The notes beneath the pieces are model-generated. The model worked only from the letters and a program-made list of their open reading frames with translations. It was not told where the DNA came from and made no database searches. From Cyanobacterium stanieri LEGE 03274 (GTDB lineage: Bacteria; Cyanobacteriota; Cyanobacteriia; Cyanobacteriales; Cyanobacteriaceae): DNA of 64,000 nucleotides. Position numbers and translations under genes: made by a program. Shown here piece by piece: positions 51,690 to 63,939 of the stretch (position 1 is its first letter; each line of letters starts with the position of its first letter). The DNA lies in NCBI RefSeq assembly GCF_015207825.1, contig NZ_JADEWC010000003.1, positions 1 to 64,000 of the forward strand. Reading direction: 5' to 3'.

Positions 51690-52817
51690 ATGAAAACAGC
51701 ATTGGTCCATGAATGGTTAACCCCCAAGGCGACGGGAGGTTCGGAGTTAGTAGTTAAAGAGATTTTAGAGCTAATAGATAATATTGAACTATATGCCCTC
51801 ATCGATTTCGAGTCTTCCAATCCTCAAAGTTACCTTTATGGACGAAAAATCAACACTTCTTTCCTACAACATTTTCCCCTGAGCAAAAACGGCATCCAAA
51901 ACTATTTACCCCTATTGCCCATTGCCGTAGAGCAACTAAATGTAACAGAATATGATTTGGTGTTATCTTCTTCCCATGCAGTAGCAAAAGGGATAATCAC
52001 CACCCCCGCTCAACTTCATATTTGTTATTGCCATACTCCCATGCGCTATGCTTGGGATTTAACCTTTGACTATCTCCAGCGCACCTCACCCCTCAAAGGA
52101 TTTTTTGCCCGTTATTTCCTCCACAAAATAAGACAATGGGATGTAATCTCAGCCCATCGGGTAGATTACTTTATCGCTAATTCCCACCACACAGCGAGAA
52201 GAATATGGCGTTGTTATCGTCGGGAAGCAGAAGTAATTTATCCCCCCGTACAGGTAGATAAGTTTCCCTTTGAGGCTCAAAAATCAGATTTTTACGTAAT
52301 TGTATCTCGCCTTGTCAGTTATAAAAAAGTATCCCTCATTGTTGAAGCCTTTAATCAACTAGGAAAACCTTTAGTTGTCATTGGGGATGGCCCTGAATAT
52401 AAATCCATACAAGCCCTTGCCAAGCCTAATATTACCCTTTTAGGGTCAGTGGATGACATAACCCTTAAAAAATATTTATCCTCCGCTAAGGCTTTTATAT
52501 ACGGTGCTTGTGAAGATTTTGGCATCGCCATTGTAGAAGCCCAAGCCTGTGGCACTCCTGTGATTGCCTATGGGCAAGGGGGAGCTTTAGAAACGGTTAT
52601 TGACATACGAACCCATCAGGATACTGGCACGGGGCTTTTTTTCTCATCTCAAACCGTAGAATCATTGGTTGATGCTGTCAATAATTTTGAAAATTTATTA
52701 CCCCATTTCCATGCCGAAAATTGTCTTATTAATGCTCAAAGGTTCAGTTTACAAAGATTTCAACAGTCATATCAACAATTCATTGATCAATGTTTATATG
52801 AATTTAGTCCAAAATAA
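51690..52817 (+). CDS. Glycosyltransferase family 4
   Basis: 375 aa, GT-B fold. N-terminal HEWLTPKATGGSELVVKEIL and CYCHTPMRYAWDL are typical of mannosyl-type GT4 enzymes in exopolysaccharide loci; the C-terminal lobe has YVIVSRLVSYKKVSLIVEA and the donor-binding EX7E region DFGIAIVEAQACGTPVIAYG. Starts 6 bp after ssb; the next gene is a polyprenyl-phosphate sugar transferase. First gene of the exopolysaccharide-like region. Confidence 0.9.
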   Translation: MKTALVHEWLTPKATGGSELVVKEILELIDNIELYALIDFESSNPQSYLYGRKINTSFLQHFPLSKNGIQNYLPLLPIAVEQLNVTEYDLVLSSSHAVAKGIITTPAQLHICYCHTPMRYAWDLTFDYLQRTSPLKGFFARYFLHKIRQWDVISAHRVDYFIANSHHTARRIWRCYRREAEVIYPPVQVDKFPFEAQKSDFYVIVSRLVSYKKVSLIVEAFNQLGKPLVVIGDGPEYKSIQALAKPNITLLGSVDDITLKKYLSSAKAFIYGACEDFGIAIVEAQACGTPVIAYGQGGALETVIDIRTHQDTGTGLFFSSQTVESLVDAVNNFENLLPHFHAENCLINAQRFSLQRFQQSYQQFIDQCLYEFSPK

Positions 52818-52924: not shown

Positions 52925-52950
52925 AATCAGGTGTGACTAGAGGAGTAACA

Positions 52951-53652
52951 ATGACCATCAATACCCAATTTTTGTCTAGGAAAAGCGCGCGTAGCTCTAC
53001 AAAATCAAGGGCGATCGCACAATCAACCATTTCCCATAGCTATCGTTATAAAAGAGTATTTGACATTATTTTTTCCGCCACAGTATTAATAATCTGTTTT
53101 CCCATCTACTTTACCATTGCCCTATTAATATTAATTAGCTCCCCTGGACCAATTTTTTACTATCAAGAAAGAGTAGGCAAAAATTTTCAAACTTTTAAAT
53201 GTATTAAGTTTAGAACCATGGTTAAAAATGCTGATCTAATCTTAGACAAAATTTTAGCAGAATGTCCCCATAAAAAAGCTGAATTTGAAAATAATTTTAA
53301 ACTAAAAAAAGATCCTCGTATCACTTGGATTGGTAGATTTTTACGAGCCACAAGTTTAGATGAATTTCCCCAATTTTGGAACGTATTAAAAGGTGATATG
53401 AGTATTGTTGGGCCTCGTCCTCTTGTCCCCAAAGAGCTTTGTATGTATGGTAATAAAATTGATAAAGTATTAACTATCAAGCCAGGGATCACAGGATTAT
53501 GGCAGGTATCGGGAAGAAATGATATTCCTTATAATCGTCGTATTTTAATGGATGTTTATTATGTTATGAATAATAATTTTATGTTTGATATTTGGATTGT
53601 TCTTAAAACTATTGCGGTGATGTTTTTTACTAAAAATAATGGAGCTTATTAA
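52951..53652 (+). CDS. Polyprenyl-phosphate sugar phosphotransferase (PF02397)
   Basis: 233 aa. The start is set at ATG 52951 (MTINTQFLSRKS) because AGGAG lies 5 bases before it; the GTG at 52933 lacks such a site. One transmembrane segment (VFDIIFSATVLIICFPIYFT) is followed by the catalytic cytosolic domain with PIFYYQERVGKNFQTFKCIK, LDEFPQFWNVLKGDMSIVGP and a late PGITGLWQVSGRND. Transfers a hexose-1-phosphate to undecaprenyl phosphate, the first step of capsule or exopolysaccharide repeat synthesis. Confidence 0.94.
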   Translation: MTINTQFLSRKSARSSTKSRAIAQSTISHSYRYKRVFDIIFSATVLIICFPIYFTIALLILISSPGPIFYYQERVGKNFQTFKCIKFRTMVKNADLILDKILAECPHKKAEFENNFKLKKDPRITWIGRFLRATSLDEFPQFWNVLKGDMSIVGPRPLVPKELCMYGNKIDKVLTIKPGITGLWQVSGRNDIPYNRRILMDVYYVMNNNFMFDIWIVLKTIAVMFFTKNNGAY

Positions 53653-53750: not shown

Positions 53751-55148
53751 TTATTTTGTAATATTTCTAGGAGCTATTTTTTGACCTTGATAAAATCTTT
53801 TTTCAATTTTTCCTAGATAAAAGTAACTGACAATACTGATTAAATTAACGATCACTATTGAATAAATAATTACTGGAGATATATTCGGGAAATTAAGAGA
53901 AATCATCGGTAAAAGTGACCAAATAATAGCAGTAAAAATGATTAAAATTTGACGAATGTTTTGAATATTGTTCAGTGCCTGACGACAACTAGAACATTTT
54001 TCTGTATGGGAATGATAACGCTCTAATAAAATATCGTGGGTAGGGGTTGCTGGTAAGTCTTGATTAGGGAATAATTCGGCATTATATTTATTTATCCACT
54101 GTCTAAATTCGGTTACATATAAATCTGCCTTAGTGGGTAAGTAACAGGCTTTTTCATATTTTTCGCTACCGCCTAATTTTTCTAAGTATCGCTCTTGATA
54201 ATGGAGGAAAATTTGATCATCTTCAAGGATAGCATTTTGATTAAGATGGGAATACCAACGAGGGGTTAATTTGATAAAAAATTGAGGAATTTTTGAGGAA
54301 AATTGGAAGGGAAAACGAGCAAACAAACGGCATTTTCCTTTACTAATAGGAGTAGCATAAACCACCGTCATGGTGCGTCCAAATTGTTTAGAGGTTAAGT
54401 CGTGCCACATTAAATTGGGGGCAACAAAGGTAGTATATTGACTGCCTAGCTTACCTTTTCTTGGCCCTTCTTGCCATACTCCATTAAAGCCTTGCCTATT
54501 ACTACTGATAATTTCTAATTCTACCGTAGAAACGTTGGAGCGATCGCCCACAGAACCATGATGAGTATAGGGGATATGACTAGAATCTAAAACATTTTCC
54601 AATAAAGTGAGGGCAGAATAAGGAATATCCCGAAAAGTATTTAACACCAACCATTTATCCTTATCTTCCTCCAAAGGATCTACGATGGGAATAGGAGTTT
54701 TATCCGCATTATCAGGATCACCAGCATAAACAAATAATAAATCCTGCTCAACCTTACAAGGATAAGCCTTCACACAGGCACGGGAAGAAGTATGCGCCCG
54801 TTGATTTTCTTGTTGTTGGGGTATCACCTCACAATCTCCCTCCCCAGAAAAAGCCCAACCATGGTAAGGGCATTCCAACAAACCCTCCTCATTAATTCTC
54901 CCTTCCGTTAAAGGCGCTAAACGATGGGGGCATTTGTCGGTAAATACTCGCCATTGAGAAGTTTTTTCCTCCCACCAAATTACAATATCTTCCCCTAACA
55001 AAGTAAAAGAATTAGGTCGATTTTTTTGCAAATCCTCCACAAAAAACACAGGATACCAAACCTCTTGATAATTAAAATTATCTTCATCCTCTCCCCCCAC
55101 AGGTAAAACTACAGGGGCTTTTGCTTTTTCTAGGGTAGATTGTGTCAT
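53751..55148 (-). CDS. Rieske [2Fe-2S] non-heme oxygenase, PAO/Tic55-like
   Basis: 465 aa. Rieske cluster ligands in CPHRLAPLTEG and CPYHGWAFSGEG near residues 80-110; the mononuclear iron ligands lie in ENVLDSSHIPYTHHG. Late in the protein a CSSCRQAL motif (CxxC) and two transmembrane helices (IFTAIIWSLLPMISL and SIVIVNLISIVSYFYLG) match the pheophorbide a oxygenase / Tic55 / protochlorophyllide oxygenase group of cyanobacteria and chloroplasts. CxxC makes thioredoxin control plausible. Substrate unknown. It interrupts the exopolysaccharide region and is on the opposite strand. Confidence 0.92.
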   Translation of the reverse strand: MTQSTLEKAKAPVVLPVGGEDEDNFNYQEVWYPVFFVEDLQKNRPNSFTLLGEDIVIWWEEKTSQWRVFTDKCPHRLAPLTEGRINEEGLLECPYHGWAFSGEGDCEVIPQQQENQRAHTSSRACVKAYPCKVEQDLLFVYAGDPDNADKTPIPIVDPLEEDKDKWLVLNTFRDIPYSALTLLENVLDSSHIPYTHHGSVGDRSNVSTVELEIISSNRQGFNGVWQEGPRKGKLGSQYTTFVAPNLMWHDLTSKQFGRTMTVVYATPISKGKCRLFARFPFQFSSKIPQFFIKLTPRWYSHLNQNAILEDDQIFLHYQERYLEKLGGSEKYEKACYLPTKADLYVTEFRQWINKYNAELFPNQDLPATPTHDILLERYHSHTEKCSSCRQALNNIQNIRQILIIFTAIIWSLLPMISLNFPNISPVIIYSIVIVNLISIVSYFYLGKIEKRFYQGQKIAPRNITK

Positions 55149-55242: not shown

Positions 55243-56235
55243 CTAGTTAGTTTCGTAATAATTCTTATACCAACTTACAAATCTTTCGATGCCCTCCTCA
55301 ATGGAAGTAGTAGGTTTAAAACCGACATCTTGAATTAAATCATCAATATCTGCATAGGTTGTTGGCACATCTCCCGGTTGTATGGGTAAGAAATTCTTTT
55401 CTGCTTTCATACCCAAACAATTTTCAATAACTTCAATAAATCTAGTTAACTCAACGGGTTGATTATTACCTATGTTATATATCTTATAAGGAGGAATTTT
55501 GCTTCTATCCTCAGCTGTTGATGATTGAGGAATATGATTCATCACCCTAATAATTCCCTCCACAATATCATCGATATAGGTAAAATCTCGCTGCATTTTG
55601 CCATAATTAAAAACCTTAATCGGTTTTCCCTCTAAAATAGCCTTAGTAAATAAAAAGTATGCCATATCAGGTCTTCCCCAAGGCCCATAAACGGTGAAAA
55701 AGCGTAATCCCGTACAAGGAATATGATACAGATGACTATAGGTGTGTGCCATTAATTCATTGGCCTTTTTGGTGGCGGCATATAAACTAACAGGATTATC
55801 GACATTGTCGGAGGTGGAAAAAGGAATCTTTTTGTTAGCCCCATAAACTGAGCTAGAGGAGGCGAAAACTAAATGTTTTATGCTATTGTGGCGACAGCAT
55901 TCCAAAAGATTTACAAAACCCACTAGGTTACTATCTACATAGGCATGGGGATTTTCGATGGAATATCTTACCCCTGCTTGGGCGGCTAGATGTATTACAA
56001 AATCAAATTGATTGTTTTTAAATAACTGTTCTAAATTTTTTCTATCCGCTAAATCTAGTTTATGAAAGGTGAAGTTTTTTTGTGTTTCTAATTCTTGTAA
56101 TCGGGCTGTTTTGAGGGAGGTATCGTAGTAATCATTCAGATTATCTATACCGATAACAGATTCTCCTTTGGATAATAATTCTTGAGTTAGATAAAAACCA
56201 ATAAATCCTGCGGCACCTGTTACTAATATATTCAT
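55243..56235 (-). CDS. NAD-dependent nucleotide-sugar epimerase, probable UDP-glucuronate 4-epimerase
   Basis: 330 aa, extended SDR family. NAD-binding GAAGFIG near the N-terminus, [19 protein letters not shown], the conserved [18 protein letters not shown] and catalytic YAATK, with Thr/Ser in FASSSSVYG. The NDYYD and GVRYSIENP motifs match UDP-glucuronate 4-epimerases (CapI/LspL type), which make UDP-galacturonate for acidic polysaccharides. The call between UDP-glucuronate and UDP-glucose epimerase rests on motif recall. Near the SRP RNA gene. Confidence 0.9.
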
Positions 56236-56448: not shown

Positions 56449-57495
56449 TCACTTTTTCTCTACGTCAAAAATAGGTGCGATCGCCCTTACTGTTCTAGCT
56501 TCTCTCCATTGCCAATGGTTATCCTGCCCATGATTTTTAATATCTTCAATGGTTTGATCTATTAATTTTGGTATTTGGGCAAAATCTGAAAAGTTGTAAC
56601 CAATTTTGACAGGATGATTAACCTGATGATGAATTACGGGGTAATCAGAGGCAATAATATGACAACCAGCCGAAGCCGCATCGCTAATTACCCCACTGGC
56701 ACGGTAAAAATAACGCTCTTGGTCGTAGTGTATGATTAGTATATCGATTTGCTGTAATACTTTTAAATAATCTTCTTCTTTGGTGGTGTCGAGCAAAGTT
56801 GCTTTTACTTCATCGAGATAGGCTGGTTTTTGCCCTAGAGGTGTACCGATGATTAATTCACATTGATGATCACTATCGGTAATATACTGTTGTATTTTAT
56901 CAAGGATAAGGGCGATCGGTTTATCGGGGCGAATCATGCCTACTACCCCAATTTTGATAGTTTCATTTTCCGATAATCTTTCTCCTAATTTTAGCCTTGG
57001 TGTTACTTCACTAAGAATAGGAAGGGGCATTAAATATTTACAATAGTCAGGAAATCTGTATTTTTCAGGAATTACATCATCATCAATTTCTAGCAAAACT
57101 ACTTTTAAGTTTCTAAATAATTCTAGATAAATTTTTAGATAAATAAAACCTAAATATTTTATTTTACTATTCATCGCAAATTGTTGATTACCATGGAGAG
57201 TAAGAAAGGTTAATTTTCCTCTCAATGCCAGTAGGGGTAGTAAAAATAAGCAATGTTGATTATAAAATTCAAAGACAAAAATTGAGTCAATATCTTTAAA
57301 TTTAAATGCTCTTAATCCCATGGCAATATGACGATATTCCCGTCTGATTTGTAACCCAATTTGATAGGGAAATAGTTTACTAAGTTTTAGTAACCAATTT
57401 GGTAGCTCTGTTTCTAAGGAGATAAAGGCGATCGCACTTTGATTGTATTCAGGAATTAAAAGTAAGTCTTTTAAACAGGGGTGCATTAACTGCAT
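56449..57495 (-). CDS. GT-B glycosyltransferase-like protein
   Basis: 348 aa. The C-terminal lobe is GT4-like: TIKIGVVGMIRPDKPIALIL, LIIHYDQERYFYRASGVISD with a following SAGCHIIASDYPVI, the donor-binding region. The N-terminal lobe has FLTLHGNQQFA. No membrane helix is certain (LFLLPLLALRG is short). Likely adds a sugar in the surrounding exopolysaccharide pathway. Its first 22 codons and upstream region are duplicated at 58630-58834, beyond a toxin-antitoxin pair, so its promoter region has been rearranged. Confidence 0.75.
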   Translation of the reverse strand: MQLMHPCLKDLLLIPEYNQSAIAFISLETELPNWLLKLSKLFPYQIGLQIRREYRHIAMGLRAFKFKDIDSIFVFEFYNQHCLFLLPLLALRGKLTFLTLHGNQQFAMNSKIKYLGFIYLKIYLELFRNLKVVLLEIDDDVIPEKYRFPDYCKYLMPLPILSEVTPRLKLGERLSENETIKIGVVGMIRPDKPIALILDKIQQYITDSDHQCELIIGTPLGQKPAYLDEVKATLLDTTKEEDYLKVLQQIDILIIHYDQERYFYRASGVISDAASAGCHIIASDYPVIHHQVNHPVKIGYNFSDFAQIPKLIDQTIEDIKNHGQDNHWQWREARTVRAIAPIFDVEKK

Positions 57496-57697: not shown

Positions 57698-58231
57698 TTA
57701 CGATGGTTGAGATATAGGAGGAATTGTGCCTTTATTTAACCAATTAATAGCTAAATAAGGATGAACAATATGAATATTATAATGAGGAAAATCATAAATA
57801 GCGTGCTTGTTTGGAATAATGGTTTTCACATCTTTGTTGAGAAAATCCTGAAAATTAGCAGTTATCAATAGATCAGCTTTTCCAGCTACAGCAGTTTCTA
57901 AAACTTGTTGATCTTCCAAGTCATCAATAGCAAGAACTCCTGTACCGCCTAAGATTAACTGAGGATTACTAAGCTGAGCGTAACTAGAAATAATATTGAC
58001 ATAAAAAGAAGCATCCTCAGCGAGGGGAGTTAGTCGCAATAAAACTTGTTCTAAACGATTTAACATTCCCCAAGAAATAATAAGTTCTACTTTTCTTGAA
58101 TAACAATGCCCATAACGAACAAAATCAACAATACTTTGACAAGCAGAGTTTTGATTACCTTTAATATCAGCTAATAATGCTGCACACCAAATATTCAAAT
58201 CAAGGCATAACTTTAAAGGCTTACACATCAC
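57698..58231 (-). CDS. PIN-domain toxin (VapC-like, COG1569 type)
   Basis: 177 aa. PIN-type acidic residues are visible: LCLDLNIWCAAL near the N-terminus, DDLEDQQVLETAVAGKADLL and ITANFQDFLN near the C-terminus, as in the family of putative toxins that are RNA-cleaving endonucleases. Its start overlaps the end of the antitoxin gene by 11 bp, a typical toxin-antitoxin layout. The module sits between two 205-bp direct repeats. RNA target unknown. Confidence 0.88.
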   Translation of the reverse strand: MMCKPLKLCLDLNIWCAALLADIKGNQNSACQSIVDFVRYGHCYSRKVELIISWGMLNRLEQVLLRLTPLAEDASFYVNIISSYAQLSNPQLILGGTGVLAIDDLEDQQVLETAVAGKADLLITANFQDFLNKDVKTIIPNKHAIYDFPHYNIHIVHPYLAINWLNKGTIPPISQPS

Positions 58232-58568
58232 CAGTTAATCCGATAGATGCGGATAAAATATCATCTTCTGTTTTCAAGCTACTTAACCATTCTTGATCTA
58301 TATTTTCAGCAATTCTTTTTTGGGCTAATTTGTATTGATGATGTAACAGTACTCTGGTAATGTCTTGACTAATTTCGAGCCATTGTGATTTTGAAGCAAC
58401 ATTAGTTAATTGCAATAAAGCCGACCAAGCATTAGGTGGTAAGATAGAACCTAATTTAATGGCCGTACTTGCAATTTGAGATTTTGAACGATTTTCTTTT
58501 TTTGACAAAGCGGTAATTCGTTCTGAAGTTTCCATATCAACATGGGCAGAGAGAGTTTTTCCCATCAT
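58221..58568 (-). CDS. Antitoxin, ribbon-helix-helix-like N-terminus
   Basis: 115 aa, upstream of and overlapping the PIN toxin gene. The first ~40 residues, TLSAHVDMETSERITALSKK then ENRSKSQIASTAIKLG, match the beta-strand plus two-helix ribbon-helix-helix DNA-binding pattern of antitoxins; the rest is helical (ITRVLLHHQYKLAQKRIAEN) and likely wraps the toxin. By family it should repress its own operon. A second in-frame ATG follows the first directly. Confidence 0.82.
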   Translation of the reverse strand: MMGKTLSAHVDMETSERITALSKKENRSKSQIASTAIKLGSILPPNAWSALLQLTNVASKSQWLEISQDITRVLLHHQYKLAQKRIAENIDQEWLSSLKTEDDILSASIGLTGDV

Positions 58569-58921: not shown

Positions 58922-59400
58922 ATGTTACAGTCAAAATTAATATCAAAGACTAAAAGAATACTAAAAACATTTCTTAACCCTCAAAGTAAAATAATGATGT
59001 ATTACAAAATCTCACGATATTTACATAATCGAGGGTTTTTATTTTTAGCAGAATTAGTTAGATATAAACAAGCAAAATATGGATGTTATATCTCTGAAAA
59101 ATCTATAATTGACGAAACAGTAGTTTTTCCTCATAGTGTCGGTATTGTTATTGGTGAAGGAGTAGTGATAGAAGAAAATGTCAAAATATGGCAGAATGTC
59201 ACTATCGGTAGTCATGGAAAAAAAACAGCCCTCAGGAATATCCTTACATTGAATCGGGAGTAAAAATATTTGCAGGAGCTATTATTATAGGGGGAGTAAG
59301 GGTTGGAAAAAATTCTATTATTGGAGCGAACTGTTTAGTGTTAAGTGATGTACCAGCAAACACTACGGCAGTGGGGATTCCCTACAAAAATAATAAATAA
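58922..59400 (+). pseudogene. Hexapeptide-repeat acyltransferase (serine acetyltransferase-like), frameshifted
   Basis: The first frame gives 113 residues (58922-59263), with SVGIVIGEGVVIEENVKIWQ and NVTIGSHGKK, the start of a left-handed beta helix, then goes out of frame. One extra base at the A8 run (59218-59225) restores a continuous 159-residue protein reading YPYIESGVKIFAGAIIIGG, VRVGKNSIIGANCLVLSDV and ending at 59400, eight bases before murB. The whole is a CysE/WcaB-like acetyltransferase as found in exopolysaccharide loci. The break could be a real mutation, an assembly error or slippage at the A-run. Confidence 0.85.
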
Positions 59401-59408
59401 TACAGACG

Positions 59409-60293
59409 ATGAATTTACCAAAAGAGATACAAACAGATATTTTGTTAACTCCTTACACTACTTGGAAAATAGGTGGAAAAGCAAAATATTTTACTGAACC
59501 AACTCCAGAAGAACTACCTCAAGTGATAAAGTGGGCTTTCACCAATAACATACCTACATACTTTATTGGTCGTGGTTCAAATCTATTAATAGATGATGCG
59601 GGATTACCAGGGTTAGTAATAGTAACTCGTAATTCTTTAACTGATTTGCAAAGAGAAGATGATGTTATCATCGCTGGAAGTGGTGTTTTTTTGCCTCATT
59701 TGTCACAGTTTGCCGCCAAACAAGGTTTCTCTGGTTTTGAATTTCTGATTGGTATTCCTGGAACCGTGGGAGGAGCTATAGCTATGAATGCCGGGCTTAC
59801 AGTATTCCGTCCCCGTGAAATGACATCCATTGTCAAGGATTTTGATGTTTTGAATCTTGATGGCAGTGTTGAAACCCTAACGATGAAGGATATTGATGCA
59901 CAGTATCGACAAACAAATTTATTGGACGGGAAACGCCTAATTGTAGAAGCTCGTTTTATATTAGAACACTCGGGCGATCCTGAAGAAATAAAAAAGAATA
60001 CATTTGCCCATCTCGCAGAGCGTAAGCGTAAGCAACCTTTAGATAAACCCACAGCAGGAAGCACCTTTAAATCTCCCCGCGGTAGTAAAAGTGCTGGATG
60101 GTGTATTGAACAAGCAGGTTTAAAAGGTTTTCAGATTGGGGGTGCAAGGGTAAGCCCCGTTCATGCAAACTGGATTGAGAATTTGGGCAATGCCACATCC
60201 CATGATGTCCGTGAATTGATAAACCATATTCAAGATGTTGTAAGAGAAAAAATAGGAATTAATTTGGAAACAGAAGTTTGTTTTTTGCCTTAG
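59409..60293 (+). CDS. murB: UDP-N-acetylenolpyruvoylglucosamine reductase (MurB), type II
   Basis: 294 aa, the short (type II) MurB. FAD-binding segments YFIGRGSNLLIDDAGLPGL and GIPGTVGGAIAMNAG are present. Catalytic residues seem kept: Tyr in DAQYRQTNL, Ser in PTAGSTFKSPRG and Glu near the end in LETEVCFLP. Reduces enolpyruvyl-UDP-GlcNAc to UDP-MurNAc. It lies in an exopolysaccharide-type locus next to a MurA-like gene, which is unusual for a housekeeping peptidoglycan gene in cyanobacteria. Confidence 0.95.
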   Translation: MNLPKEIQTDILLTPYTTWKIGGKAKYFTEPTPEELPQVIKWAFTNNIPTYFIGRGSNLLIDDAGLPGLVIVTRNSLTDLQREDDVIIAGSGVFLPHLSQFAAKQGFSGFEFLIGIPGTVGGAIAMNAGLTVFRPREMTSIVKDFDVLNLDGSVETLTMKDIDAQYRQTNLLDGKRLIVEARFILEHSGDPEEIKKNTFAHLAERKRKQPLDKPTAGSTFKSPRGSKSAGWCIEQAGLKGFQIGGARVSPVHANWIENLGNATSHDVRELINHIQDVVREKIGINLETEVCFLP

Positions 60294-60321
60294 AATGACT
60301 CCATAACACAACTGTGAATTT

Positions 60322-61593
60322 ATGAAAATGGCTAAAAATGTAAATAAATTAATTCTTCATCCTTCACGGTTAGAAGGGAAAATAAAAGTCGGTGGCGCTA
60401 AAAATTCTGCCCTTCGTTTATTAGCAGCATCTCTACTTACCTCATCTCCTGTGATTATAAAAAATTATCCTAGCACTCTACTTGATGTTGATATTCATGT
60501 TGAAATGTTAGAAGTGTTGGGAAAACATTGTAAATTAATAAATGAAAATGAAATCGAGATTACCGAGCTTCGCTTTCCTTCCTCACACTTGATTTGGAAT
60601 AAAAGATCCATTCGTAATACTCTTTTGATTTTGGGAGCTTTAGTCGCCCGTACAGGGCAAGGGAAAGTTCCATTACCAGGGGGGTGTCAACTGGGCGATC
60701 GTAAATATGATCTTCACATAATGATCTTAAAATCTTTAGGTGCTAAAGTATGGCAAGAAGATAATTATCTTTGTGCAGAAATTTCAGGAAACAAAAAACT
60801 TCAAGGCTCAGATATTTATCTGCCTATTCGTTCTACAGGAGCAACTGAAAATAGTATTATTTGTGCGTGTTTAGCAGAAGGTCAAACCCGTATTTGGGGT
60901 CCTCACATTAGACCTGAAATTCATGATTTAATCAATTTTTTGCGATCTATGGGGGCAAAAATAGAAGTACGAGGTCAAGAAAGTATTATTGTCGAAGGTG
61001 TAGAACAATTAGGAGGTACAACCCACGAAGTAATTCCTGACAATATAGAAGCTCTTACATGGCTAATTGGTTCTGCTGTTACCAATGGCGATGTTGAAAT
61101 TGTTGATTTTCCTTTCGAGCATTTAGAAGTGCCTCTTATTCATTTACGTGAAAGTGGAGTCCGTTTTTATCGCTCCGAAAATCATTTGATAGTGAGAGGA
61201 TCAAAATGTTATCCCATCGACATCAGCACCGGTCCATATCCTGGGATTAACTCCGATATGCAACCTCTTTTTGCTGTACTAGGTGCCATGGCTCAAGGAG
61301 AAAGCCGTATCATTGATCTACGCTTTCCAGGACGTTATGCTTATGCACAAGAATTAGCAAAGATGGGAATGATTTATCAAGTGAAAAATAATTTATTATT
61401 AATCGAAGGAGGAAAAAATCTTCAAGGCAATGAAGTAAAAGCTCTTGACTTGAGGGCTGGAGCAGCTCTAATGATAGCCAGTCTCATTGCTAATAGTCCA
61501 ACTACTATTACTAATGCTTGGCAAATATTTAGGGGATACGATCAGCTGGAGAAAAAATTGACCCAATTAGGAGTCAATTGGCAATCAGATTAA
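60322..61593 (+). CDS. murA: UDP-GlcNAc 1-carboxyvinyltransferase-like protein (MurA), divergent
   Basis: 423 aa, the normal MurA/EPSP-synthase fold length. Conserved: Lys-Asn in VGGAKNSAL, catalytic Cys in VPLPGGCQLGDRKYD, the Asp in PGINSDMQPLF, DLRAGAALMIASL and the Arg in FRGYDQLEKKL. Less usual: IDLRFPGRYAYAQELAKMG where canonical MurA has ENRFMHVxEL. The enzyme adds enolpyruvate to UDP-GlcNAc and looks active. Paired with murB 28 bp upstream and followed by glycosyltransferases. It may be a second, pathway-specific MurA or the sole copy; this window cannot tell. Confidence 0.9.
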   Translation: MKMAKNVNKLILHPSRLEGKIKVGGAKNSALRLLAASLLTSSPVIIKNYPSTLLDVDIHVEMLEVLGKHCKLINENEIEITELRFPSSHLIWNKRSIRNTLLILGALVARTGQGKVPLPGGCQLGDRKYDLHIMILKSLGAKVWQEDNYLCAEISGNKKLQGSDIYLPIRSTGATENSIICACLAEGQTRIWGPHIRPEIHDLINFLRSMGAKIEVRGQESIIVEGVEQLGGTTHEVIPDNIEALTWLIGSAVTNGDVEIVDFPFEHLEVPLIHLRESGVRFYRSENHLIVRGSKCYPIDISTGPYPGINSDMQPLFAVLGAMAQGESRIIDLRFPGRYAYAQELAKMGMIYQVKNNLLLIEGGKNLQGNEVKALDLRAGAALMIASLIANSPTTITNAWQIFRGYDQLEKKLTQLGVNWQSD

Positions 61594-61714
61594 CTCGTCA
61601 TAATCTTTTTAAATAATCTCCCTATATTTTTGTGTTCCGCTAAGGTATAACCGATCGATAATGTTTAAATTACTTCGTAAAAAAAATATATATTAAAGTT
61701 CTCATAAATTCAAT

Positions 61715-62824
61715 ATGCATAATGAAGTCAAGCCAAAAGTAGCTTTTTATTTAAGAATGCTTTCTGGAGGAGGAGCAGAAAAAGTAATAATCAATCTAAC
61801 CAAAGGGCTTGTTGAAAAGGGAATTACGGTTGATTTGATTTTAAATATACCAGCAGGTCCTTATTTAAAAGAAGTATCTCCTGAAGTAAGAATTATTACT
61901 CTTGGCACTCCTAAATTATTAAAGGGCTTACCGAAGCTAGTTAATTATTTAAAAAAAGAAAAACCTCAAATTCTTTTTTCTGCAATGCATTACAACAATG
62001 AAATTGCTATTTGGGCTAAATACTTAGCAAGGGTAAAAACTAAAGTTATCGTATCTGAACATAACACTTTGTCTGTTCATGCCAAAAATCAAACGGGTAG
62101 TGAAAAATGGTCTCCATTATTCGCAAAACTATTTTATCCCTTAGCGAATGAGATTGTTACTGTGTCTCATGGTTCTGCTAAAGATTTAGCCAAAGTGACA
62201 GGTATCCCACCGTCAAAAATAAAAGTAATTTATAACCCTGTTATTACACCAGAATTATTAGCAAAAGCCCAACAATCAATCAATCATCCTTGGTTTGAGG
62301 CCCAACAACCACCAGTGATTTTAGCGGTCGGTAGATTAAATCAACAAAAAGATTATCCGACTCTTATTAAAGCATTTGCAAAAGTGAAACAAATAAAACC
62401 TTGCCGTTTAATGATTTTAGGTCAAGGTCCTGAAAAGAAAAAACTTAATGATTTAATTAATCAATTAAATTTAAAAGAAGACATAATCTTACAAGGTTTT
62501 GTCGAGAATCCCTATGCTTATATGAAAAAGGCAACAATGCTAGTACTATCTTCTCAATGGGAAGGGCTTCCCACCGTTTTAATCGAATCTTTGGCTGTTG
62601 GTACCTCTGTTGTCTCAACTAATTGTCCTAGTGGTCCAGAGGAAATTCTTGATCATGGTAAATACGGTACATTAGTACCTATTTTAGATGTTAAACTTCT
62701 TTCTGAAGCAATACTGGATATTTTATCAGGAGAAATTAAATCTATTGATACAGAATGGTTGGAACAGTTTACCTTAGCAAAAGTTACGCAACAGTATGTA
62801 GATCTTTTTTCTGTTCCTCTTTGA
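61715..62824 (+). CDS. Glycosyltransferase family 4
   Basis: 369 aa, GT-B fold. The N-terminus VAFYLRMLSGGGAEKVIINL, then TKGLVEKGITV, is typical of GT4 enzymes that add GalNAc, GlcNAc or fucosamine-like residues in O-antigen and capsule loci. The C-terminal lobe has ILAVGRLNQQKDYPTLIKA and LVLSSQWEGLPTVLIESLAV, with the conserved donor-binding Glu pair. About 120 bp after murA on the same strand. Confidence 0.92.
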   Translation: MHNEVKPKVAFYLRMLSGGGAEKVIINLTKGLVEKGITVDLILNIPAGPYLKEVSPEVRIITLGTPKLLKGLPKLVNYLKKEKPQILFSAMHYNNEIAIWAKYLARVKTKVIVSEHNTLSVHAKNQTGSEKWSPLFAKLFYPLANEIVTVSHGSAKDLAKVTGIPPSKIKVIYNPVITPELLAKAQQSINHPWFEAQQPPVILAVGRLNQQKDYPTLIKAFAKVKQIKPCRLMILGQGPEKKKLNDLINQLNLKEDIILQGFVENPYAYMKKATMLVLSSQWEGLPTVLIESLAVGTSVVSTNCPSGPEEILDHGKYGTLVPILDVKLLSEAILDILSGEIKSIDTEWLEQFTLAKVTQQYVDLFSVPL

Positions 62825-62919
62825 AGGTATAAGCACAAAATGAATGTATAAATGCGCTTGTTTTGTTATTTAATTTGAGCAAATCACATATCATTAAATA
62901 ATTATACTTCCCAGCAATC

Positions 62920-63939
62920 ATGACAAAAAAAGTAACCATTGTAACTTGTACTTTCAATAAAGGCGAGTCTAATAGAGCCTCACTACAAAGTATCATAGAT
63001 CAAACTTATCAAGATTTTGAGTACATTATCGTTAATGATGGTTCTACTGATAACACAAAAGAAATTTTAGATGAATTTACGGCACTCGATAATCCTCAGT
63101 TAACAATAATTCACCAAAAAAATAAAGGATTTATTGATAGCCTAATTGATACTTTAGAAGGAATTGATACCCCTTATATTGCCATTCATGGTGCGGGAGA
63201 TATTTCTCATCTAACAAGACTAGAAAAACAAATTGAACTATTAGAGTCTGACTCTTCTATCGGTGCTGTTGGCTGTCACGTAAGAAAATTAACACATGAA
63301 GGAAAAACTATAAGAACAACTAAAGATAAGAAAAATAAACTGTTAATAAATGATCCTCAAGAATTATTTTTTGGTAACTACTATACACATGGAGAAGTAA
63401 CCTTTAGGCGTTCAACATATATTCAAACTGGAGGTTATAGACGTTTTTTCAAATATGCTCAAGATATAGATCTATGGTTGAGAATGCTAGATTTTTCCAA
63501 GTTGGCAAAAATTGACTCTATTCTTTATGAACAAATATATATGCCTAATAGTTCAGTGGCTTCTGATTACAAAAAAGTGGAGTATCAAGCTAAGTTATTT
63601 TGTTTTGCCGTGTTTTTGTCAAAACAACGATTACAGGAAATTTCAAACCCCATTGAAGCAAAATGGGATAAGTTATTTGAAGAATTTTGTGATAATCTTG
63701 ACGACAAGGACAAAGACTTTATCAGTGGCAGAATAATGGAAACCGCTGGAATCAATTATATTCAAACTCGCAATAATGCTGTATTAGCAAATGCCGCCCG
63801 TAGAGTCCTCACAATAAACCCTGAAAATCATCCTTCCAAACGATATATAAAATTAAGAATTTTAAGTATTATAGATAAATTTGGAGATACTAAATTTTGG
63901 AAATTTTTAATTAGAAAACTATTCAATACTTTCTATTAA
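62920..63939 (+). CDS. Glycosyltransferase family 2
   Basis: 339 aa, GT-A fold. Nucleotide-binding start VTIVTCTFNKGESNRASLQS, then IVNDGSTDNTKEILDEF; the metal-binding DxD position appears as GAGDISHL, the first acidic residue being replaced, and a late KYAQDIDLWLRMLDF is typical of inverting enzymes with the catalytic Asp. No membrane helices, so cytoplasmic. Last gene of the window; the locus may continue beyond. The final 61 bases hold no gene. Confidence 0.92.
   Translation: MTKKVTIVTCTFNKGESNRASLQSIIDQTYQDFEYIIVNDGSTDNTKEILDEFTALDNPQLTIIHQKNKGFIDSLIDTLEGIDTPYIAIHGAGDISHLTRLEKQIELLESDSSIGAVGCHVRKLTHEGKTIRTTKDKKNKLLINDPQELFFGNYYTHGEVTFRRSTYIQTGGYRRFFKYAQDIDLWLRMLDFSKLAKIDSILYEQIYMPNSSVASDYKKVEYQAKLFCFAVFLSKQRLQEISNPIEAKWDKLFEEFCDNLDDKDKDFISGRIMETAGINYIQTRNNAVLANAARRVLTINPENHPSKRYIKLRILSIIDKFGDTKFWKFLIRKLFNTFY

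Follow-up and report, generated by a model that had tools for sequence, protein, structure and literature searches.

A rare MurA-MurB paralogue pair in bacterial polysaccharide loci, probably involved in the synthesis of a lactyl sugar

Results

A second murB-murA pair in Cyanobacterium stanieri

We analysed two adjacent genes in a stretch of 64,000 nucleotides of Cyanobacterium stanieri LEGE 03274 (contig NZ_JADEWC010000003.1, positions 1 to 64,000, hereafter the window). They encode paralogues of MurB and MurA, enzymes usually taken as a sign of peptidoglycan synthesis. We name the two genes murB' and murA'. Both are on the + strand, 28 bp apart:

59409-60293, + strand: murB', UDP-N-acetylenolpyruvoylglucosamine reductase paralogue (294 aa; TIGR00179, MurB_C, FAD_binding_4)
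60322-61593, + strand: murA', enolpyruvyl transferase paralogue of a rare, apparently mobile clade (423 aa; EPSP_synthase PF00275, TIGR01072)

Protein profiles confirmed these two open reading frames (ORFs), which a preliminary description of the sequence had assigned to MurB and MurA. MurB' scored 229.6 bits with TIGR00179, above the cut-off of 144.5, and matched the domains PF02873 and PF01565. MurA' matched PF00275 (246 bits), but its score with TIGR01072 (380.8 bits) was below the equivalog cut-off (392.7). It also failed the model NF009470, which we take to be that of MurZ (331.8 bits, cut-off 552).

The preliminary description had noted that the pair would be a housekeeping one if the genome encoded no other murA and murB. 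We searched the genome (3.19 Mb, 67 contigs, 100% complete) and found both: a murA at positions 43297-44541 of contig C2 (587 bits, above the cut-off) and a murB directly behind murC in contig C10. The window pair is therefore a second set, and we reject the housekeeping explanation. MurA' shares 39% identity with the housekeeping MurA of the same genome, and MurB' 40% with its MurB. A candidate third murA (C10:3836) was rejected, as it is AroA-like (30% identity, with an ORF that begins as an EPSP-synthase). In agreement with the preliminary description, ddl, murC and fts are all absent from the ORF lists of the window; they are also absent from those of the next 40 kb.

The dN/dS values relative to the copies of Anabaenopsis were about 0.07 for murA' and 0.12 for murB', which are rough values given the high dS. 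Judging from these ratios, both genes are under strong purifying selection.

MurA' is a single clade scattered over three phyla

The proteins of the MurA' clade are 52-77% identical among themselves, and at most about 40% identical to other MurAs. Among 60 near relatives of C. stanieri, and then among 386 genomes of the phylum, we found MurA' only in the window genome: the other proteins scored about 345 bits or less, against 811 bits. We scanned 84,980 species genomes for peptide patterns and retrieved carriers in Anabaenopsis elenkinii (77% identity), Fluviicola chungangensis (63%), Sphingomonas sp. Leaf20 (59%), and a Bacteroidales metagenome-assembled genome (MAG, 59%), all four of which have their own separate housekeeping MurA. 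Plasmids of Rhizobium, Qingshengfaniella, and Agrobacterium sp. MA01 also carry MurA' (57-61%), the next plasmid match being at 39%. A sample of 336 alphaproteobacteria added one more carrier (genome G586); a sample of 394 other Bacteroidota added none. The 20 pattern matches in viral contigs included no true relative. The clade is thus rare, scattered over three phyla, and looks to have spread horizontally.

In the phylogenetic tree, MurA' is a single clade (100/100) apart from 15 housekeeping MurAs. The preliminary description had asked whether the genes form a clade linked to exopolysaccharides, and MurA' occurs, in nine lineages, only beside MurB and glycan genes. The MurB partners have another history. 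They fall into three groups (cyanobacterial, alphaproteobacterial, and Bacteroidota) that were united in none of 200 bootstrap trees. Their descent as one co-inherited clade was rejected by the approximately unbiased (AU) test (p = 0.0095), made with the MurB' group defined by linkage and without one row of odd placement and four long branches, which had been removed. The simplest reading suggests that MurB was recruited more than once to the same MurA'. Repeated recruitment would imply a need to reduce the enolpyruvyl product.

The chemistry appears conserved and the nucleotide-sugar end altered

The preliminary description had reported a MurA with the full set of catalytic residues, and these are indeed kept in all 10 MurA': K22, N23, R91, C115, R120, D305, D369, R371, and R397 (E. 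coli numbering). F328 and R331 are also kept in all 10. In the window protein the kept phosphoenolpyruvate (PEP) and catalytic residues include K27, N28, R98, C122, R127, D312, D376, R378, and R404. It had also singled out a changed C-terminal motif. The change is present (IFRGY for IDRGY), but this position varies within the family (F, Y, D, E), and it is thus neither diagnostic nor the key change. The changes that span the clade are in the substrate pocket: V161R, V163T, E188R, R232N, F302I, P303N, T304S, V327R, and N330G are fixed in the 10 MurA' and absent from 16 housekeeping MurAs (they belong to 26 such positions). P121K and V122Y are in nine of the 10, including the window protein.

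The annotated contacts of E. coli MurA with UDP-N-acetylglucosamine (UDP-GlcNAc) are at positions 91, 120-124, 160-163, 305, and 327. Docking studies place Arg91, Arg120, Lys160, Glu188, Arg232, Val163, and Val327 in the UDP-GlcNAc pocket (PMC11628175, PMC10816260). At P121, V122, V163, V327, and R232 the window MurA' has K, Y, T, R, and N, respectively. The E. coli sequence used as reference was checked only for length and key positions. The AlphaFold (AF2) model of MurA' has a mean pLDDT of 89.2 and a TM-score of about 0.9 to UDP-GlcNAc-bound MurA.

MurB' shows a similar pattern. The equivalents of the catalytic Ser229, Arg159, and Glu325 (S218, R167, and E289) are kept in all 10 proteins. 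The equivalent of Asn233, a diphosphate contact in MurB (PMC12844806), is Ser or Arg in all 10 (Ser222 in the window), against Asn in 29 of 31 housekeeping MurBs, and a conserved Leu near it is also lost in all 10. So MurA', and MurB' in all three of its groups, appear to keep the chemistry and to alter the end that binds the nucleotide sugar.

The pair is embedded in polysaccharide loci

The remaining features of the window locus are, starting with the immediate neighbours of the pair:

58922-59263, + strand: front part of a hexapeptide (serine-acetyltransferase-like) acyltransferase (Hexapep 22.3 bits, cut-off 27)
61715-62824, + strand: GT4 glycosyltransferase (45% identity to a GT4 that follows the pair of Anabaenopsis at a distance of about 8 kb)
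62920-63939, + strand: GT2 glycosyltransferase, candidate transferase of the lactyl sugar (relatives near MurA'-MurB' elsewhere)
52933-53652, + strand: undecaprenyl-phosphate hexose-1-phosphate transferase (RfbP/WbaP type), candidate initiating enzyme (NF052601, 383.6 bits)
55243-56235, - strand: NAD-dependent sugar epimerase that by eye resembles a UDP-glucuronate 4-epimerase (49-52% identity to pair-linked ones of Agrobacterium and Sphingomonas)
51690-52817, + strand: GT4 glycosyltransferase of the wider polysaccharide region
56449-57495, - strand: weak GT1/GT4-like glycosyltransferase of the wider polysaccharide region (19.8 bits, below the cut-off)

The pair thus lies near glycosyltransferases and a polyprenyl-phosphate sugar transferase, as in an exopolysaccharide locus, and the latter gene had been correctly recognised in the preliminary description. 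The same description had placed the pair between an acyltransferase and two glycosyltransferases. This holds for the GT4 and the GT2 downstream, but the upstream ORF is only the front part of an acyltransferase. Its reading frame is broken at a run of eight A near 59218-59225, shortly after which the ORF stops, and the rest follows in another frame up to about 59400. The frameshift may be a true mutation, slippage or phase variation, the mark of a pseudogene, or an assembly error. We recognised no Wzx or Wzy in the ORF lists of this cluster, where no profile search for them was made. A scan for promoters and terminators gave signals no higher than in shuffled sequences. By eye, two small genes on the - strand (57698-58568) adjoin the acquired cassette, one PIN-type toxin-like and the other ribbon-helix-helix antitoxin-like, and a pheophorbide a oxygenase-like Rieske gene (53751-55148) lies within the polysaccharide region.

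In all nine lineages a MurB gene adjoins murA' or lies within 2 kb of it, in either order. Glycosyltransferases surround the pair in the nine lineages, and genes of the Wzx/Wzy/Wzz type (flippase, polymerase, chain length) are found in most of them. Wzx and Wzy lie beside MurA' in loci L012 and L078 (Pfam), and Wzy in L014 (Pfam) and L077 (annotation). In Sphingomonas, Agrobacterium, and the Bacteroidales MAG, the pair has genes resembling UDP-glucose dehydrogenase or UDP-glucuronate epimerase in its vicinity. Qingshengfaniella has the smallest cassette, which consists of an acyltransferase, murA', murB', and a GT2 amid unrelated metabolic genes. Four lineages (window, Fluviicola, Qingshengfaniella, and G586) have an acyltransferase of the window's family next to the pair. 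In Anabaenopsis we observed a partial duplicate of murB' behind murA' (L011:11275-11735), and transposase-like genes flanking the locus on both sides.

The GT2 family accompanies MurA' in five of the nine lineages (window, Rhizobium, Qingshengfaniella, Sphingomonas, and Agrobacterium). In the compared genomes, the best outside relatives of the window GT2 are all linked to MurA': those of Rhizobium (143 bits), Sphingomonas (128 bits, 18.5 kb away from the pair), and Qingshengfaniella (125 bits). The next-best GT2 of the window genome itself scores 38 bits. The relative in Agrobacterium is a broken copy (66 bits) that follows murA' after 4-5 kb, on the other side of the origin of the circular plasmid; it has in-frame stops (L142:1-1500) and looks either broken or misassembled at the start of the record. 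GT2 enzymes usually carry a DxD-type motif. At this position the MurA'-linked family (62920-63939, L076, L078, and L089) has GAGD or GSGD.

Discussion

A probable route to a lactyl sugar of an exported polysaccharide

The existence of second copies, the single MurA' clade, its constant pairing with MurB and glycan genes, the intact catalytic residues, the altered acceptor pocket, and purifying selection make it probable that the pair is a horizontally acquired module. It would supply an exported polysaccharide, not the cell wall, with a nucleotide-activated 3-O-lactyl sugar. With its catalytic residues intact, MurA' would take enolpyruvate from PEP and attach it to a hydroxyl group of a sugar nucleotide. 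MurB', whose catalytic residues are also kept, would reduce the enol ether to a lactyl ether using FAD and NADPH, as in the synthesis of UDP-N-acetylmuramic acid (UDP-MurNAc). The gene context suggests that a linked glycosyltransferase (the characteristic GT2 in five lineages) could then add this acidic sugar to a polyprenyl-linked repeat unit begun by the polyprenyl-phosphate sugar transferase, and that the polymer would then be exported.

The nature of the acceptor calls for more caution. The pocket makes an acceptor other than UDP-GlcNAc somewhat more likely than not. A uronic acid is a possible, if doubtful, candidate, put forward because MurA' gained Arg at E. coli positions V161, E188, and V327 and because UDP-uronate genes lie near several copies. 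The proximity of these genes is a weak sign, as they are common in glycan loci. Taken in its most specific form, our proposal is of a mobile cassette with a dedicated GT2, and with MurB recruited independently at least twice, that adds the lactyl group to a sugar nucleotide different from UDP-GlcNAc (e.g., a UDP-uronic acid to give 3-O-lactyl-glucuronic acid). We advance it tentatively, giving it slightly less than an even chance.

Several points weigh against the proposed role. The acyltransferase gene of the window is frameshifted, and the Anabaenopsis locus is disrupted by insertion sequences. A GT4 takes the place of the GT2 after murB' in three of the nine lineages (Fluviicola, the Bacteroidales MAG, and G586). 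The pocket contacts were derived from an alignment to E. coli MurA and not from a complex. The test of MurB polyphyly was chosen after the tree had been seen, and this tree has long branches. The pattern scan, which is insensitive, gave no species recognised as a producer of lactyl polymers, and we found neither biochemistry nor polymer composition for any carrier of MurA'.

Alternative explanations

The preliminary description had proposed that the pair supplies UDP-MurNAc or another lactyl sugar to an extracellular glycan. The comparative genomics supports the lactyl sugar, but the changed pocket argues for an acceptor other than that of UDP-MurNAc synthesis. Ordinary UDP-MurNAc might nevertheless be made for a muramic-acid-containing exopolysaccharide or capsule, so that its supply is uncoupled from peptidoglycan synthesis. 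The order and chemistry of the enzymes are identical to those of UDP-MurNAc synthesis, the fold of the MurA' model is near-identical to that of UDP-GlcNAc-bound MurA, and muramic acid has been reported in such polymers (see below). Yet UDP-MurNAc is already present in each of these cells, where a second pair would only add flux, the pocket substitutions are fixed across three phyla, and all three groups of MurB' lack the Asn that contacts the diphosphate. We regard this explanation as rather unlikely.

The annotation of the genes as MurA and MurB and their intact catalytic residues would also fit a redundant or condition-specific peptidoglycan pair (for dosage, stress, or fosfomycin tolerance), like the MurA1/MurA2 (MurZ) duplicates of Gram-positive bacteria. 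We find this very unlikely in view of the scores below the cut-offs of both the murA equivalog and NF009470, of the changed acceptor pocket, and of a rare, mobile distribution always with MurB and glycan genes. MurA is the target of fosfomycin, and the target Cys is retained, so there is no resistance rationale. The broken acyltransferase and the lack of a recognised Wzx or Wzy in the ORF lists of the immediate 14 kb, which were read without a profile search for these proteins, might further point to a pseudogenised or passenger remnant of an acquired polysaccharide cluster with no current function. But murA' and murB' are intact, closely spaced, and have low dN/dS, which makes a remnant the most improbable of these explanations.

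If lactyl-sugar synthesis is indeed the role of the pair, MurA'-MurB' would represent a general genetic route to the lactyl-ether sugars of bacterial polysaccharides and explain their origin in some capsules and slimes. The signature GDRKYD, RSTGATEN, PGINSDMQ, and DLRFxGRY could then predict polymers with lactyl sugars, and the annotation of these genes as cell-wall enzymes would need correcting.

Comparison with known systems

Lactyl sugars are known in a few exopolysaccharides (EPS) and capsular polysaccharides (CPS). Reports of muramic acid concern sacran, from Aphanothece sacrum (PMC8199723), and the CPS of Vibrio vulnificus ATCC 27562 (PMC7247339); 3-O-lactyl-glucuronic acid (nosturonic acid) was reported in the EPS of Nostoc commune and V. 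alginolyticus (PMC5983295). The sections of these papers that we consulted describe exported lactyl-ether glycans, i.e., the type of product expected of MurA'-MurB', but they name no biosynthetic genes and report no MurA' in the strains. In the open-access literature, we found no report of genes for the synthesis of such sugars, nor any assigning murA or murB homologues to EPS, O-antigen, or capsule loci. A paper on Klebsiella cps contains no murA or murB. One on the EPS of Cyanobacterium aponinum reports galacturonic acid, glucuronic acid, fucose, and sulfate; neither muramic acid nor lactyl groups are mentioned in its text.

Housekeeping MurA (TIGR01072) has in common with MurA' the fold, and the PEP and catalytic residues including Cys115. 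MurA' differs by its 36-40% identity, its score below the cut-off, its acceptor pocket, its linkage to glycan genes, and its patchy distribution. MurB' likewise shares with housekeeping MurB (TIGR00179) the family score, the FAD domain, the Ser proton donor, and the Arg/Glu carboxylate contacts; it differs by the lost equivalent of Asn233 and the nearby Leu (10 of 10), and by the several separate origins of the partners. The MurA2/MurZ of Gram-positive bacteria is also a second MurA in one genome; it acts in peptidoglycan synthesis, and MurA' fails its presumed model. A further precedent is NikO, the enolpyruvyl transferase of nikkomycin synthesis, a MurA relative that moved from peptidoglycan to another nucleotide acceptor (PMC6801904). 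NikO (PDB 4fqd), which uses UMP as the acceptor in an antibiotic pathway, is 23-24% identical to MurA' in a fold alignment.

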